A stretch of DNA of 54,959 bases from an uncultured Chloroflexota bacterium (GTDB taxonomy: Bacteria; Chloroflexota; Dehalococcoidia; GIF9; AB-539-J10). A program made the translations under genes and the position numbers. How positions within the stretch are numbered: position 1 is the stretch's first letter; every line of letters starts with the position of its first letter. The notes below the pieces were generated by a model. That model worked only from the letters and a program-made list of their open reading frames with translations, was not told where the DNA came from and did no database searches. The stretch is taken from NCBI GenBank assembly GCA_903884455.1, contig CAISEW010000015.1, forward strand, positions 1 through 54,959. Reading direction: 5' to 3'. Positions 10,340 through 16,852 of this stretch are shown here, piece after piece.

Positions 10340-10439
10340 CTAGAAATATTAGGGTCTAGATGACCGTTGCCATCGCCCTGTCAGTTTCAAAATGAGGTTC
10401 TAACCCCTTTCAGACTCTTGAATAAACCTCAGCAAATTC

Positions 10440-10489
10440 CAAGGACACCACGCCAATCGGGCCTACTATAAATTAAGCCCGTTATTGTC
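10440..10489 (+). repeat. interspersed repeat, copy A
   Basis: Most diverged of three copies; the others are at 12958-13004 and 16284-16330. Shared: GGACACCA, GCCAAT, GGCCTACTA and TATTGTC/TATTATGTC. This copy also has a CGGGC / GCCCG inverted repeat absent from the other two. Its right end touches the stop codon of the zinc-finger gene. Confidence 0.6.
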
Positions 10490-11128: not shown

Positions 11129-12766
11129 TCACCAGGTATCAACAAAATCATGACCTGTTCTCTCGGCGCGTTCGGCAGGAACGGCTCTCAAGCCCTCCAT
11201 AATCCATCTGCGTGTATCCGCCGGGTCGATAACCGCGTCGATTTCGAGGTAAGAGGCCATATTGATGGCTTTCCCTCTCTCATATAACGAGGCAAGCAGT
11301 TTCTCGTAGAGCGCTTCGCGTTCCTGCGAGTCTTTCACTGCCTCAAGTTCTTTCCTGAAACCAGCCCTGACAAAGCCCTCCAATCCCATCCCGCCAAATT
11401 CTCCGGTCGGCCAGGCAACCGCAAAAAAAGGCTCGTGGAAGCCCCCCTTCGCCATAGCCTGCGCTCCCAGTCCGTATCCCCTGCGCAAAAAAACTGTAAA
11501 GAAAGGTACCGTTAAATGCGAGCCGACCACAAACATACGGCAAATGTGGCGAACCTGAGCGCGGTGTTCAATCTCCGGCCCCACCATGAATCCCGGAGTA
11601 TCGACCAGAGACACCATGGGCAAACCATGCGCATTGCAAAGCTGCATGAGGCGTGCTGCCTTGTCCGCGCCTTCCGCTTCAATGGCCCCGGCCTGGTGTT
11701 TGCAGTTATTGGCTATAACACCAAAAGGCTTGCCCTCGATGCGTATAAGACCCGTAATCATCTCCCGGCCGAATTTGGGTCTTAGCTCAAGGAATGAGTC
11801 TGTATCGGCTATCGTTTTTATGATAGCCCGCACGTCATAAACGTATCTTCGCTGCTCCGGAATCATGTTGCGAAGAAGGCACTGGTCGGCTGCCTCCCAT
11901 TGGGAAATCGCTCCCTGGAAATAGGAAAGATATTTCTTGGCGACTGCGACCGCTTCTGCATCGTCAGCCACGGCAATGTCGACAACGCCATTTTTCGTTT
12001 GCACATCCATAGGCCCAATATCCTCTGGCTTGAAAACCCCGAGTCCCCCGCCTTCGATCATAACCGGGCCGGCCATCCCGATGTTGGCATTTTGGGCGGC
12101 AATAATTACATCGCAACATCCCAGCAAGACAGCATTGCCGGCAAAACATCGGCCCGATACGATGCCCACAACCGGAACTTTCCCGCTCAGTTTGGCAAAC
12201 ATGGCAAAGGTCGCTATGTCTAGACCCGCCACACAGACGCCATCCGCATCGACGTCACCCGGCCTCCCACCGCCACCCTCCGCAAAAAGGACCACGGGCA
12301 GACGCTGCTCGTGAGCCAATCTCAACATGCGGTCCTTTTTCTTGTGACCAAAAAATCCCTGGGTACCGGCCAGGACCGTATAATCGTAGGCTATTATCAT
12401 GCAGCGGGCCTTGTCTTCCCCGAACAACGATCCGTTGACCTGTCCGATGCCTGCAATCACCCCATCGGCCGGGGTTTTGCTCATTAGGTCTTCCATGGTT
12501 CGACGTTGGCGCTGGGCGGCGACCGCCAGGGCACCGTATTCGATAAAGTGCCCGTCGCAGAGATCTTTTATGTTTTCACGAATCGTGCGCTGGCCTGTCT
12601 CTCGCCGTCGCGCCACCGCCTCGGGGCGTTGCTTGTCAAGGCCCCGAGAATGTCTCTCTATCACCTCTTTGAGATCAGCGCGCATCGGCTCCTCATCAAC
12701 TTGTCTATCCTTCGACTTAGAGTCCTTTCCTGCCTCCACTTTGTCTTTGTTCTTAGATTTCTTCAT
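11129..12766 (-). CDS. acyl-CoA carboxylase carboxyltransferase subunit (propionyl/methylmalonyl-CoA type)
   Basis: 545 residues. A lysine-rich N-terminal tail of about 30 residues precedes the carboxyltransferase fold: ARRRETGQRTIRENIKDLCD, VIAYDYTVLAGTQGFFGHKK-type N half, GRCFAGNAVLLGCCDVIIA oxyanion/acyl-CoA region, and a C half with FGVIANN, VDTPGFMVGPEIEHR and YGLGAQAM. Start chosen at ATG 12766, with GGAGG 9 nt upstream; longer frames to 12916 are unlikely. The enzyme transfers CO2 from carboxybiotin to or from an acyl-CoA. No biotin carboxylase, biotin carrier or decarboxylase membrane subunit is nearby, so its complex must be encoded elsewhere. Confidence 0.9.
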   Translation of the reverse strand: MKKSKNKDKVEAGKDSKSKDRQVDEEPMRADLKEVIERHSRGLDKQRPEAVARRRETGQRTIRENIKDLCDGHFIEYGALAVAAQRQRRTMEDLMSKTPADGVIAGIGQVNGSLFGEDKARCMIIAYDYTVLAGTQGFFGHKKKDRMLRLAHEQRLPVVLFAEGGGGRPGDVDADGVCVAGLDIATFAMFAKLSGKVPVVGIVSGRCFAGNAVLLGCCDVIIAAQNANIGMAGPVMIEGGGLGVFKPEDIGPMDVQTKNGVVDIAVADDAEAVAVAKKYLSYFQGAISQWEAADQCLLRNMIPEQRRYVYDVRAIIKTIADTDSFLELRPKFGREMITGLIRIEGKPFGVIANNCKHQAGAIEAEGADKAARLMQLCNAHGLPMVSLVDTPGFMVGPEIEHRAQVRHICRMFVVGSHLTVPFFTVFLRRGYGLGAQAMAKGGFHEPFFAVAWPTGEFGGMGLEGFVRAGFRKELEAVKDSQEREALYEKLLASLYERGKAINMASYLEIDAVIDPADTRRWIMEGLRAVPAERAERTGHDFVDTW

Positions 12767-12957
12767 GTGTGGCATCCTCCTCCATGTCGTAACTATAGTT
12801 GTGTTAGCCAAAAGAATTATAACAGGGGCAGAGAAATTGTTCCGCCTGTCCCGCAGTAAAGCTAATCTTTCCAGAAAGCCGGTAAGAAGTCTCCTGGATG
12901 ACATCCGGCATATCATTCATATGTCTTCTGAGCGGTACCGGGATGTCCTGAATCCGT

Positions 12958-13004
12958 CAGGGACACCATGCCAATTAGGCCTACTACAAATTAGGTATTA
13001 TGTC
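12958..13004 (+). repeat. interspersed repeat, copy B (left flank of accessory cassette)
   Basis: 47 bp, 43/47 identical to copy C at 16284-16330 with no gaps. Includes the 8-bp palindrome TAGGCCTA. Lies between the carboxyltransferase start and the YaaC-like gene. Confidence 0.8.
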
Positions 13005-13089
13005 CGCAGAATGCCCAAGGCGTGATAGAATATTCGCGGAGAATACTTAGGTACATGAAGTTGTGTAGATTTCCCATTCACAGAAGAAC

Positions 13090-14106
13090 ATGAGCGACGC
13101 GGTTTATATTAATAGTGAAAACTCTGCTAAAGATCAATGGAAGTTGCTAGCTCAGTATGCTTATTCAACAAATATTGTAAGGTACTTGCATCAGCATGGA
13201 TTCGCGGATTCTGAAAGGCTTGTTGAATACATTGCCGGTTGTTTTAGACAGAGCGAAGCGTATTTCATCGCAGCAGAGGGCTCCCCGATAGACATTTCTC
13301 CACTTCTTCAGTATTATGGTGCAGTTACTTTGCTCGCCGGCGCATCTGCGCTGACCCGAGGTGGTCAACTCCCTATCAAAGAACACGGAATGTCGCTATA
13401 TGCCTCGAACATCAAGCGAATCGCAGATACTCAAGTAATACCAAGAAGAAATGGAGCTCTTCAGCAATTCGCTGGCATATTCTCACCTGGCTGTCTGTTT
13501 GTAAATGGTGAGCCGTGGACAATGGAGGAAATCTTGGGCTCTATTCCAGACCTTAAACAAGATTTTGAAAACTGTTATGAGGCAGCTATTCCGTATACCA
13601 TTCCGATCGAAATAGTCAAGAGAGACCGTGGTTCACTTGAACGTATCGCAAAAAAGGAACTAACAAGATATGAATCACCAGAAGACGCACTCGGAAATAT
13701 AGAACATTTACCTGATTCTTATCTCACCCCTGAAAATACGAGTCAATATATCATATTACATCGGAAAATTAAGTCGCCTGAAATCGGTGCTTATTCACTC
13801 TTCAACCAGAAACATTTGCAGATAGCTCACTCAAAAAAGGGACAAAAGTTAACGCCAAGTCAAATCATTAACATGTTTATGGGGATGTTTTCGGTAGGTT
13901 TCCTATCGAGATATCATCCTGAATTTTGGAATCCTTTTGTGAGAAGTGATGAGACAGGAGAATTGCTGCTCATTGAGAAGTTCATAGCTGTGTGTCAGCG
14001 TTATTTCCCGAATCTTGTTTTAAATGAGATACTGAAATCGCGCATTCAATTCGTAAATAAAACAAAGGGTATATTGGACTTTTCCACTAAGAGGGAAATG
14101 CTATGA
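13090..14106 (+). CDS. YaaC-like protein, 338 aa
   Basis: Pattern recalls the YaaC family: early YAYSTNIVRYLHQHG, then SEAYFIAAEGSPIDISPLLQYYG at about 55-77 (family form: PLSIxPVLxYYG), KEHGMS near 98-102, and a C-terminal MGMFSVGFLSRYHPEFW block followed by IEKFIAVCQRYFPNLVLNEIL. YaaC proteins have no established biochemical role. No membrane segment or signal peptide. The stop overlaps the next start by 4 bp (ATGA), so the two are coupled. The AT-rich sequence and flanking repeats suggest an accessory origin. Confidence 0.72.
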   Translation: MSDAVYINSENSAKDQWKLLAQYAYSTNIVRYLHQHGFADSERLVEYIAGCFRQSEAYFIAAEGSPIDISPLLQYYGAVTLLAGASALTRGGQLPIKEHGMSLYASNIKRIADTQVIPRRNGALQQFAGIFSPGCLFVNGEPWTMEEILGSIPDLKQDFENCYEAAIPYTIPIEIVKRDRGSLERIAKKELTRYESPEDALGNIEHLPDSYLTPENTSQYIILHRKIKSPEIGAYSLFNQKHLQIAHSKKGQKLTPSQIINMFMGMFSVGFLSRYHPEFWNPFVRSDETGELLLIEKFIAVCQRYFPNLVLNEILKSRIQFVNKTKGILDFSTKREML

Positions 14107-15089
14107 GTGTACGATCTGATGCTTACAGTACCTGTAAGTATGTGTGGAGTTCACCGTCCAGAGAGCGTTTAAAATCAGTTATCGGAAAGTTACAAGCTTC
14201 AGAGTTTGGATATCTTGCTCGCGGGCAGCATGCGCAGATACTGAGTTTCTTGGTTGTTGACCAGAAAAAAACTGAGCTCGAAAAGAAGCTGCAACCACTC
14301 CATATTGTCCCTCTTGAGGATGAAGACCGGATACTTTTATCCAAAGTCCATAAGCAGCTTGTTCAATTGAATATGGCATGTATTGCTCCGCTGTCTGCTG
14401 AACTACCACAATGCGTTAAAGCCGTTGACCCTTATCGTAAATTTAAATATGAGCTCCCCGAAGTTCCAGACGGAGATATTCTCTCTGAAGAAGTCTTCAC
14501 TAAGATGACGACTAGTTTTCTTGAACATCCTGCAATCAAAGTTTTTCTTCAGAGTCTACAATCGGCCAGAATCAAAATGACAGAAGATAATTATATTGAG
14601 GCGGTATCAATATTCTATGAGACCCTCATTAAGGCTGGCGTTAATGATGCTCCAAAGGACATCATTAACATCATGTTGGGCCAAGGCAAAAACTCACTGC
14701 AACGAACGATTGCTCGCCATATTACTGCTTTAACCTGCATACGGGCATCGCTTTCTGTTCTCGACCAACTTCTCTATCAGGCGATATTAAGTAACAAGCT
14801 GCCAGTATTAGATGAAAACAACATCATCGACATTGGACAAATGAGTAATAATCTCGTGGGCAATGGCCTCTCTTTGTTATACCAACCAGGTAAGCAATTA
14901 TTCATGGCTAATATTTGTGACATTGTATTAATCAGGAGTGAGAATCTTTATTTACCGCTTGGTCAGTTATGGCAAGTGGAGGCAGTACATCGTGAGTATT
15001 CGCAGGAGTACGGATCTTATGAAGAACTTGCTCTCAGAGAGATTGATGAAAATCTGAATCCTTTCGGCCACCTACTTGAGCCTATGTAG
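14103..15089 (+). CDS. hypothetical protein, 328 aa, coupled to the YaaC-like gene
   Basis: Not recognised. Predicted mostly helical and cytoplasmic: QHAQILSFLVVDQKKTELEKKL near 43-64, an Ile/Leu-rich middle (EAVSIFYETLIKAGVNDAPKDI), and TIARHITALTCIRASLSVLDQLLYQ near 205-230. No nucleotide-binding loop, zinc site or transmembrane segment seen. Translation start overlaps the YaaC-like stop (ATGA). A partner role with the YaaC-like protein is inferred from coupling only. Confidence 0.7.
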   Translation: MSVRSDAYSTCKYVWSSPSRERLKSVIGKLQASEFGYLARGQHAQILSFLVVDQKKTELEKKLQPLHIVPLEDEDRILLSKVHKQLVQLNMACIAPLSAELPQCVKAVDPYRKFKYELPEVPDGDILSEEVFTKMTTSFLEHPAIKVFLQSLQSARIKMTEDNYIEAVSIFYETLIKAGVNDAPKDIINIMLGQGKNSLQRTIARHITALTCIRASLSVLDQLLYQAILSNKLPVLDENNIIDIGQMSNNLVGNGLSLLYQPGKQLFMANICDIVLIRSENLYLPLGQLWQVEAVHREYSQEYGSYEELALREIDENLNPFGHLLEPM

Positions 15090-15120
15090 TATTAGCCACC
15101 TTGTAATTTCAACTGAAACC

Positions 15121-15208
15121 ATTGCACATTCCTGACATTGGTGCAATCTGATTAGCAGTCTCTTGTAGGTACCTCCTTCACCCCGTAATCGTACTACAAT
15201 GCTATAAT
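15121..15208 (+). promoter_or_regulatory. inverted repeat and possible promoter before the third cassette gene
   Basis: Perfect 7-bp inverted repeat ATTGCAC / GTGCAAT (15121-15147, 13-nt loop), which could be a terminator stem or operator, followed by a consensus -10 TATAAT at 15203-15208. I do not see a good -35 at the right distance. It implies that the third gene can be transcribed separately. Confidence 0.35.
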
Positions 15209-15258
15209 CATGATTAAGCCATTAAGAACATAGCAAGAGGTAAGAGAGAGGACGTCTA

Positions 15259-16173
15259 GTGTCAGAGAAGAACTTCAATGAAAATGAATCTCTACGGAGA
15301 GTGCAATACCTTGGAGCATCAGGGTACACCCGTGAATGCCTTGTCGCTATTGATGCTATCTTAAACAGCGGGTGCCTACCCAGGAAGGCGATCATCGTGT
15401 CCATGTTCCCGCGCGGAAATAATCGCAGACAAGACCACTTATTCGCATTTGTAGACTGGGATTATTTCCCCGTTACTGTGGTACCCAGTGGTTTTGCCAG
15501 CGGATACTCAGGAGAAGGCCCAAGAGGATTCTCACTGGCAATATGCCTAATTAGGGAGAAAGGAATCCCAATTTTGGGGATTGACGTGGACGATGTGAAC
15601 TTTAGAAGAATCGACCGTGGTAATGTCAAATACTCGGATGATCCGCTTTTCAAAGATATTCTTCTCAAATGTGAGGAGTATTCATGGCCTTGGCCAGGGT
15701 GGACTATCGAGGATCATGAGCAGATGCTCGAAAGAGGTCTATTGTGGCAAGAGTGCTACTGGAGACAGCCTCAAACAGATCAAATTACGAGGGCTATTTC
15801 AGAAATCGACATTAAATTTCCTACAATCGGGAAGAAACTAAGATTGGCTAGAAGGAAAGTTGATGAATCACAAAGCAGCGAAGAACTCCAACAGGTTGGG
15901 ATCCTTATTAGGGATGCGTGGATTGAGTTTTCTAAGGATCTTTGTTCATCGCTTCCTGTTGATACTACAGATGTAGAAAAGGATAAGGTAGTTAAACGGT
16001 TAAAGAAGCTGAAGCTAGAAGATGAACTATACGATTCTTGCCGGGCATCCTTTAATTTGAGTCTCAAGGTGCAGCATGACCGCCAAATAAGAAGGGACGA
16101 GGCCGAATTGTGCCTGCTACAATCAGTGTTCTCGATGTATACACTAATTCATCATAAACTAGTAAACCCATGA
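15259..16173 (+). CDS. hypothetical protein, 304 aa, with Abi/HEPN-like helical C-terminal domain
   Basis: Starts at GTG 15259. The N-terminal part (about 1-130) has an alpha/beta look with VVPSGFASGYSGEGPRGFSL and REKGIPILGIDVDD; family not recognised. The C-terminal part (about 185-304) matches in pattern a helical domain found at the end of some abortive-infection-like proteins: KLRLARRKVDESQSSEELQQVG, IRDAWIEFSKDL, a variable linker, then SLKVQHDRQIRRDEAELCL. No R-x4-6-H HEPN nuclease motif is evident. A defence role is a hypothesis from this domain and its setting. Confidence 0.62.
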   Translation: MSEKNFNENESLRRVQYLGASGYTRECLVAIDAILNSGCLPRKAIIVSMFPRGNNRRQDHLFAFVDWDYFPVTVVPSGFASGYSGEGPRGFSLAICLIREKGIPILGIDVDDVNFRRIDRGNVKYSDDPLFKDILLKCEEYSWPWPGWTIEDHEQMLERGLLWQECYWRQPQTDQITRAISEIDIKFPTIGKKLRLARRKVDESQSSEELQQVGILIRDAWIEFSKDLCSSLPVDTTDVEKDKVVKRLKKLKLEDELYDSCRASFNLSLKVQHDRQIRRDEAELCLLQSVFSMYTLIHHKLVNP

Positions 16174-16283
16174 ATTGGTGGCCTATGATAGAGGATCTTG
16201 TGTATCCGGATCGCCTAGTCTCGACGTAAAGCAACAAGTTAAATATGCTGACAAGTATCTTTAATTCCAGTAGGGGGGATTTC

Positions 16284-16330
16284 CAGGGACACTACACCAA
16301 TTAGGCCTACTACAAATCAGGTATTATGTC
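16284..16330 (+). repeat. interspersed repeat, copy C (right flank of accessory cassette)
   Basis: 47 bp, same orientation as copy B and 43/47 identical, located 110 bp after the third cassette gene and 64 bp before dtd. The similarity fades on both sides. Confidence 0.8.
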
Positions 16331-16393
16331 GCCCGAATACACAAGCGGAAATAAATTTGGGAAGGTGGCATAATTATAACAAGCTAAATCAGG

Positions 16394-16852
16394 ATGAAAG
16401 CATTAGTGCAGCGGGTTTCCAGAGCCTCAGTGAGCGTGAATGACAACATAGTAGGCAAGATTGGCCGGGGGCTGGTGGTTTTTCTGGGCGTGGCTCAGGG
16501 TGATTCGAGGGAGGACGCTAGCTATCTGGCAAACAAAGTGGTTAACCTGCGTATTTTTGCTGACGAGTCAAGCAAGTTTTCTCTCTCGGCGCTGGATACA
16601 AGAGGAGATATCTTAGTAGTAAGCCAGTTTACCCTTCTGGCTGATTCACGCAAGGGGAGACGACCCGACTTCACCGCGGCCGCCCCGCCGGACCTGGCTA
16701 AGGAATTATATGAGTTTTTTGTGGAGCAAGTCCACGCCACAGGGCTCAAGGTGGAAACGGGGCTTTTTCAGGAGCATATGCTGGTGGAAATCCACAACGA
16801 CGGGCCGGTCACAATACTATTGGAAAGTAAGAGCACACCAAAGTCAAAATGA
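16394..16852 (+). CDS. dtd: D-aminoacyl-tRNA deacylase
   Basis: 152 residues, normal length. Starts MKALVQRVSRASVSV; carries the two active-site motifs of the DTD family, SQFTLLAD near 76-83 and the NDGPVTILLES block near 135-145. Hydrolyses D-amino acids (and mischarged glycine) from tRNA in the cytoplasm. Only a short AGG precedes ATG 16394. Placed just after repeat copy C, so it marks the return to core genome. Confidence 0.95.
   Translation: MKALVQRVSRASVSVNDNIVGKIGRGLVVFLGVAQGDSREDASYLANKVVNLRIFADESSKFSLSALDTRGDILVVSQFTLLADSRKGRRPDFTAAAPPDLAKELYEFFVEQVHATGLKVETGLFQEHMLVEIHNDGPVTILLESKSTPKSK

Follow-up and report, generated by a model that had tools for sequence, protein, structure and literature searches.

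A YaaC-encoding three-gene block in an uncultured Chloroflexota bacterium is probably an accessory module at a genus-specific, integron-like repeat

Introduction

What kind of unit is the three-gene block that lies, enclosed by direct repeats, between two genes of core metabolism in an uncultured Chloroflexota bacterium? The block (genes A, B and C) is found on contig CAISEW010000015.1 of assembly GCA_903884455.1, in a stretch of 54,959 nucleotides which was analysed as a whole and is referred to as the window. An original prediction, made from the sequence alone, took the block for a mobile cassette and possibly for a defence or stress system not yet described. We find that the repeat occurs genus-wide in multiple copies and is not private to the A-B-C block. 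The block itself is probably an accessory module at a genus-specific, integron-like exchange repeat, where modules are added, removed and reordered while their orientation is kept. What is new here is the repeat array rather than its payload. A literature search returned no account of such repeat arrays or of YaaC in defence.

Results

The features of the locus are as follows (window coordinates).

10434..10477, (+): third, partial repeat copy in the same orientation (nhmmer E=9e-10; 3 mismatches in the 21-bp core)
11129..12916, (-): acyl-CoA carboxyltransferase gene, the left neighbour, common to the empty site of genome G011
12957..13023, (+): left repeat copy, an imperfect palindrome of ~64 bp (aligned 62-bp direct-repeat stretch 12958-13019)
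13090..14106, (+): gene A, YaaC family protein (PF14175), 338 residues, ATG start
14103..15089, (+): gene B, 328 residues, ATG start, ATGA overlap with A
15259..16173, (+): gene C, 304 residues, GTG start
16275..16345, (+): right repeat copy (aligned 62-bp direct-repeat stretch 16284-16345)
16394..16852, (+): dtd (D-aminoacyl-tRNA deacylase), the right neighbour, a conserved array end in the genus

The three open reading frames (ORFs), their coordinates and the ATGA coupling of A and B are exactly as originally predicted. The 47-bp direct repeats described around the block are also correct; they form the core of repeats which are 85% identical over 62 bp. The flanking genes do belong to core metabolism, as had been stated, and repeat modules elsewhere hold ordinary metabolic genes too. 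The G+C content of the block is 40–44%, compared with ~54% in the left gene and 45–51% on the right side. Scans of the block for promoters and terminators gave nothing above chance level.

The consensus of the repeat, GAATTCCAGGGACACCATACCAATCAGGCCTACTACAAATCAGGTATTATGTCCCCAGAATACC, is an imperfect palindrome of ~64 bp with 21-bp arms, and the arm mismatches fall at the same positions in most copies. Chance would not produce its 21-bp core (0 occurrences in 100 shuffles). The genome from which the window derives contains 19 copies according to BLAST and 26 with the consensus as query. Copies were present in 15/15 genomes of the same genus that were searched, this one included (1 to 33 copies each), and in 0/9 genomes from other genera of the order. 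About nine copies carry an extra inner stretch, mostly a small hairpin. In L099, L100, L111, L114 and others, such an additional central hairpin (for example CCTTCACCTTGTGAAGG) gives rise to a subtype of ~81 bp.

The right neighbour dtd was searched for in relatives. In the sibling genome G011, the carboxyltransferase gene, a single repeat and dtd follow one another with no A-B-C, which is a clean empty site; its flanks are 86% (left) and 83% (right) identical to those in the window. Five other siblings keep the repeat beside dtd and have unrelated DNA across from it. Gene A was not found in 39 relatives, 19 of them of the same genus. Together with the low G+C content of the block, these data make the case for a mobile cassette stronger than originally claimed. 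Clean cases of module presence and absence number four, A-B-C being one of them. The partners of a given module end vary: dtd is joined on its left by 7 different partners across 6 genomes, and the module that ends in family 3 is followed on its right by 6 partners, also across 6 genomes.

The surroundings of the repeat were taken from ten genomes, giving 186 repeats at 46 loci; 145 of the 186 copies are intergenic. Orientation is uniform within every locus. At the 41 loci with at least two repeats, all 138 orientation choices are concordant. In the first 23 regions the repeats occur in runs, spaced at a median of 1.2 kb, and 60 of the 103 intervals between them hold one gene of at least 100 residues. 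Of 59 recurrent gene families, 54 are always oriented the same way with respect to the repeat. There was no relation between GC skew and repeat orientation, a weak test as skew seems to track the coding strand here. The module contents include ordinary genes such as those for a sigma-70 factor, AMP (adenosine monophosphate) ligases and radical S-adenosylmethionine (SAM) proteins. The sigma-70 gene was seen in two genomes within a repeat-bounded module, in sense orientation and in differing neighbourhoods (L020:14261-15733 and L109:6022-7494); a 490-residue ORF in L104 may be a third instance. In the window's own genome, a GmrSD_N (DUF262) gene stands alone between two repeats (L020:10138-11868), possibly a defence gene as a module.

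Conservation of gene order was analysed for neighbouring genes which each occur once in the fetched regions of another genome. Adjacency is kept in 155 of 159 cases (97%) without an intervening repeat, compared with 15 of 45 (33%) with one. When only gaps of at least 100 bp are considered, the values are 43/45 without and 10/37 with a repeat (p=3e-11; comparisons within a single genus depend on one another, so p-values are indicative). With each family pair counted once and gaps of any length included, 20 pairs are conserved and four are not without a repeat; with a repeat, six are conserved and 22 are not. When repeats are paired between genomes, 83 pairs have just the left gene in common, 72 just the right gene and six both. 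The seams lie at the repeat edges: in left-gene-only pairs similarity drops to background at the left edge, and in right-gene-only pairs it begins at the right edge.

These data bear on the possibility that the repeat is a transposable hairpin, similar to a miniature inverted-repeat transposable element (MITE) or a repetitive extragenic palindromic (REP) element, which inserts between genes, so that A-B-C would lie between two copies by coincidence. The repeat shares with MITEs and with dispersed palindromes of the REP and bacterial interspersed mosaic element (BIME) type that it is a short imperfect hairpin, mostly intergenic, present in many copies and restricted to one genus, and the copies with an inner hairpin fit this idea as well. 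However, insertion leaves neighbours unchanged, but here neighbours change at the repeats. Among 26 conserved neighbour pairs, a single one differs between genomes in whether a repeat is present; repeats are thus rarely simple insertions, which argues against simple transposition. All arrays are co-oriented, and the genome of the window has no match to the Y1 transposase family (PF01797). We regard this explanation as very unlikely.

The copies within one genome are considerably diverged: their longest shared exact run has a median of 8–19 bp and is rarely above 40 bp. This bears on a second concern, namely that the seams arose through misassembly of repeats in metagenome-assembled genomes. 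Arrays often run to contig ends and many of the genomes are fragmented, but copies with such short shared runs are too diverged to mislead an assembler. Further, the orientation and inner order of modules are kept, and several seams recur in independent genomes. Assembly error is therefore highly improbable as the source of the seams.

The same runs are also short for RecA. Recombination among scattered short repeats, by the ordinary homologous (RecA) route or by slippage, with the repeat only marking sites of rearrangement, would be in line with the ordinary chromosomal genes found in modules and with the failure of our survey to identify a dedicated recombinase; direct repeats by themselves would preserve orientation, and copies may have been more similar at the time of recombination. 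However, the clustering of the repeats in co-oriented arrays would require a further cause. We consider RecA or slippage a possible but unlikely explanation.

The arrangement recalls the sedentary cassette array of a chromosomal integron. Both have short, palindromic, co-oriented sites and units that mostly comprise one or two genes; in both, units are gained, lost and reordered but not inverted, and the variable inner hairpin of the palindrome would suit a true integron with degenerate attC sites and an IntI integrase. However, paired RYYYAAC/GTTRRRY ends were found in 0 of the 164 full-length repeats on either strand, so by this measure they are not attC sites. Four recombinases, two of them from the genome of the window, scored 124, 83, 65 and 55 bits with the integrase_gron model, far below the cut-off of 265; the remaining tyrosine recombinases of this genome were outside this scoring. 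No integron integrase was found among the recombinases tested. Unlike integron cassettes, the units contain housekeeping-like genes (the sigma-70 factor) and occupy several loci per genome, and their genes occur in both orientations relative to the repeat (85 sense, 59 antisense). The array is integron-like in several respects, but a true integron is scarcely credible here.

Tyrosine and serine recombinases were surveyed in the relatives. Tyrosine recombinases occur in all of them, whether the repeat is present or not. Two of the conserved ones form a tandem pair at C60. In L168:2333-4795 a gene for a 193-residue protein lies between two Xer-like tyrosine recombinase genes; members of this pair exist in other genomes of the genus and apparently across the order. 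A serine recombinase was rejected as the repeat enzyme, being sporadic and absent from the repeat-rich genomes G006 and G007. In G013 a recombinase lies beside the last repeat, which is accounted for by an adjoining tRNA-Leu site. A phage-like contig from a viral collection (L202:4508-9220), with terminase-, portal- and integrase-like genes by eye, carries four repeat copies just past a tyrosine recombinase gene; one copy has a HicB-like antitoxin gene upstream.

The payload was analysed at the level of families, homologues and structure. No function is given in Pfam for the YaaC family. The YaaC pattern recognized in the first protein proved right: A matches PF14175 over residues 15–314 with 114 bits (cut-off 27). 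YaaC is rare and sporadic, being found in 6/400 genomes of the phylum and 4/393 of the class, this one included; this is as expected of an accessory gene, yet no proof of defence. An alignment search with A in genome contigs gave no match.

In G585, a genome from another family, the gene for a YaaC protein with 37.5% identity to A has a homologue of B immediately after it (27.6%, E=5e-39). This YaaC-B pair directly adjoins a tRNA-Val gene (L188:5128-7442). B was found in no genome of the class besides G585 and this one (260 genomes), and searches of phages, plasmids and viral contigs, as well as a pattern scan of 84,980 species genomes, gave no match for it. C was not found at the YaaC-B locus of G585 and had no match in phages, plasmids or viral contigs. 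Since A and B are conserved in G585 while C is absent, A and B are an old unit and C is at best a passenger. The predicted three-gene system thus stands for the adjacent A+B pair and not for C, which is also set apart from B by a gap of 170 bp. Judged by sequence comparison, A+B is a conserved two-gene unit to which C is not linked, and the pair appears to spread horizontally. In G069, a YaaC gene is located among transposase genes which by eye resemble IstA/IstB of IS21, and the N-terminal part of a 199-residue protein of the same genome resembles residues 166–297 of C.

B and C have no convincing family match in Pfam, NCBIfam or PADLOC. Gene A belongs to a known family and is here followed by a protein that matches none. 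The helical C-terminus of C had been likened to abortive-infection (Abi) proteins; this received no support, as C gave no Abi match, nothing above cut-off in Pfam or NCBIfam and one weak PADLOC similarity (E=0.03). C also showed weak similarity to anthrax lethal factor, in a middle domain of the latter (Pfam E 0.003, PDB E 0.013); this is below the curated cut-off and was rejected as chance helical similarity. The structural model of A, with a predicted local distance difference test (pLDDT) value of 66, has its best match in the HEPN domain of sacsin (3o10; Z 7.9, 124 residues, root-mean-square deviation 3.3). Foldseek found no significant HEPN match for this model, and the likeness may reflect only a common helical arrangement. 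The model of B (pLDDT 38) was too low for use.

A and B matched no known defence system among the PADLOC models. The suggestion of a defence or stress system thus drew no backing from PADLOC or NCBIfam, nor from B and C, which contain no known domains. A host-defence or stress role for A+B is possible, mobility and rarity being the two features which suggest it.

Discussion

The repeat probably acts as an exchange site, with co-oriented copies separating modules that mostly hold one gene or two. Recombination between repeats would add, remove and reorder whole modules without flipping them. We infer that this would be site-specific and proceed via an excised or donated module, with a Xer-type tyrosine recombinase as the likeliest enzyme. 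A-B-C probably arrived, or was retained, at a 64-bp repeat that already stood between dtd and the carboxyltransferase gene.

Several results weigh against exchange at a dedicated site. None of the surveyed recombinases could be tied to the repeat. No mapping signal for a crossover point within the repeat was obtained, even in pairs sharing both flanks. There is no covariation between the arms of the repeat, and its variants resemble independent decay. The mixed strand of the module genes and the sigma-70 gene among them differ from classical cassettes, and in the phage-like contig one copy is reversed relative to the others, an exception to co-orientation. The dependence among genomes of one genus noted above belongs here as well.

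Site-specific mobilization of accessory modules is also described for the ssrA-specific islands of Dehalococcoides (PMC3146451), which on an indirect class assignment possibly belongs to the same class as the present organism. The 64-bp repeat differs from these islands in its presence at many loci.

A more far-reaching proposal, put forward tentatively and with more doubt than confidence, is a form of cassette exchange independent of integrons: in one genus, some recombinase would cut out and reinsert modules, chromosomal genes among them, at a strand-asymmetric 64-bp hairpin and always with the same orientation; parts of the chromosome would thereby be reshuffled repeatedly and become open to foreign entrants such as the YaaC-B pair. 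If the exchange is site-specific, it would be a natural way, besides integrons, of holding genes as interchangeable modules, and one acting on ordinary metabolic genes in bacteria with small genomes. It would then explain the scrambling of gene order in the genus and indicate the points of entry for foreign genes. For the uncharacterized YaaC family, the conserved YaaC-B pair offers a first partner, and with it a test.
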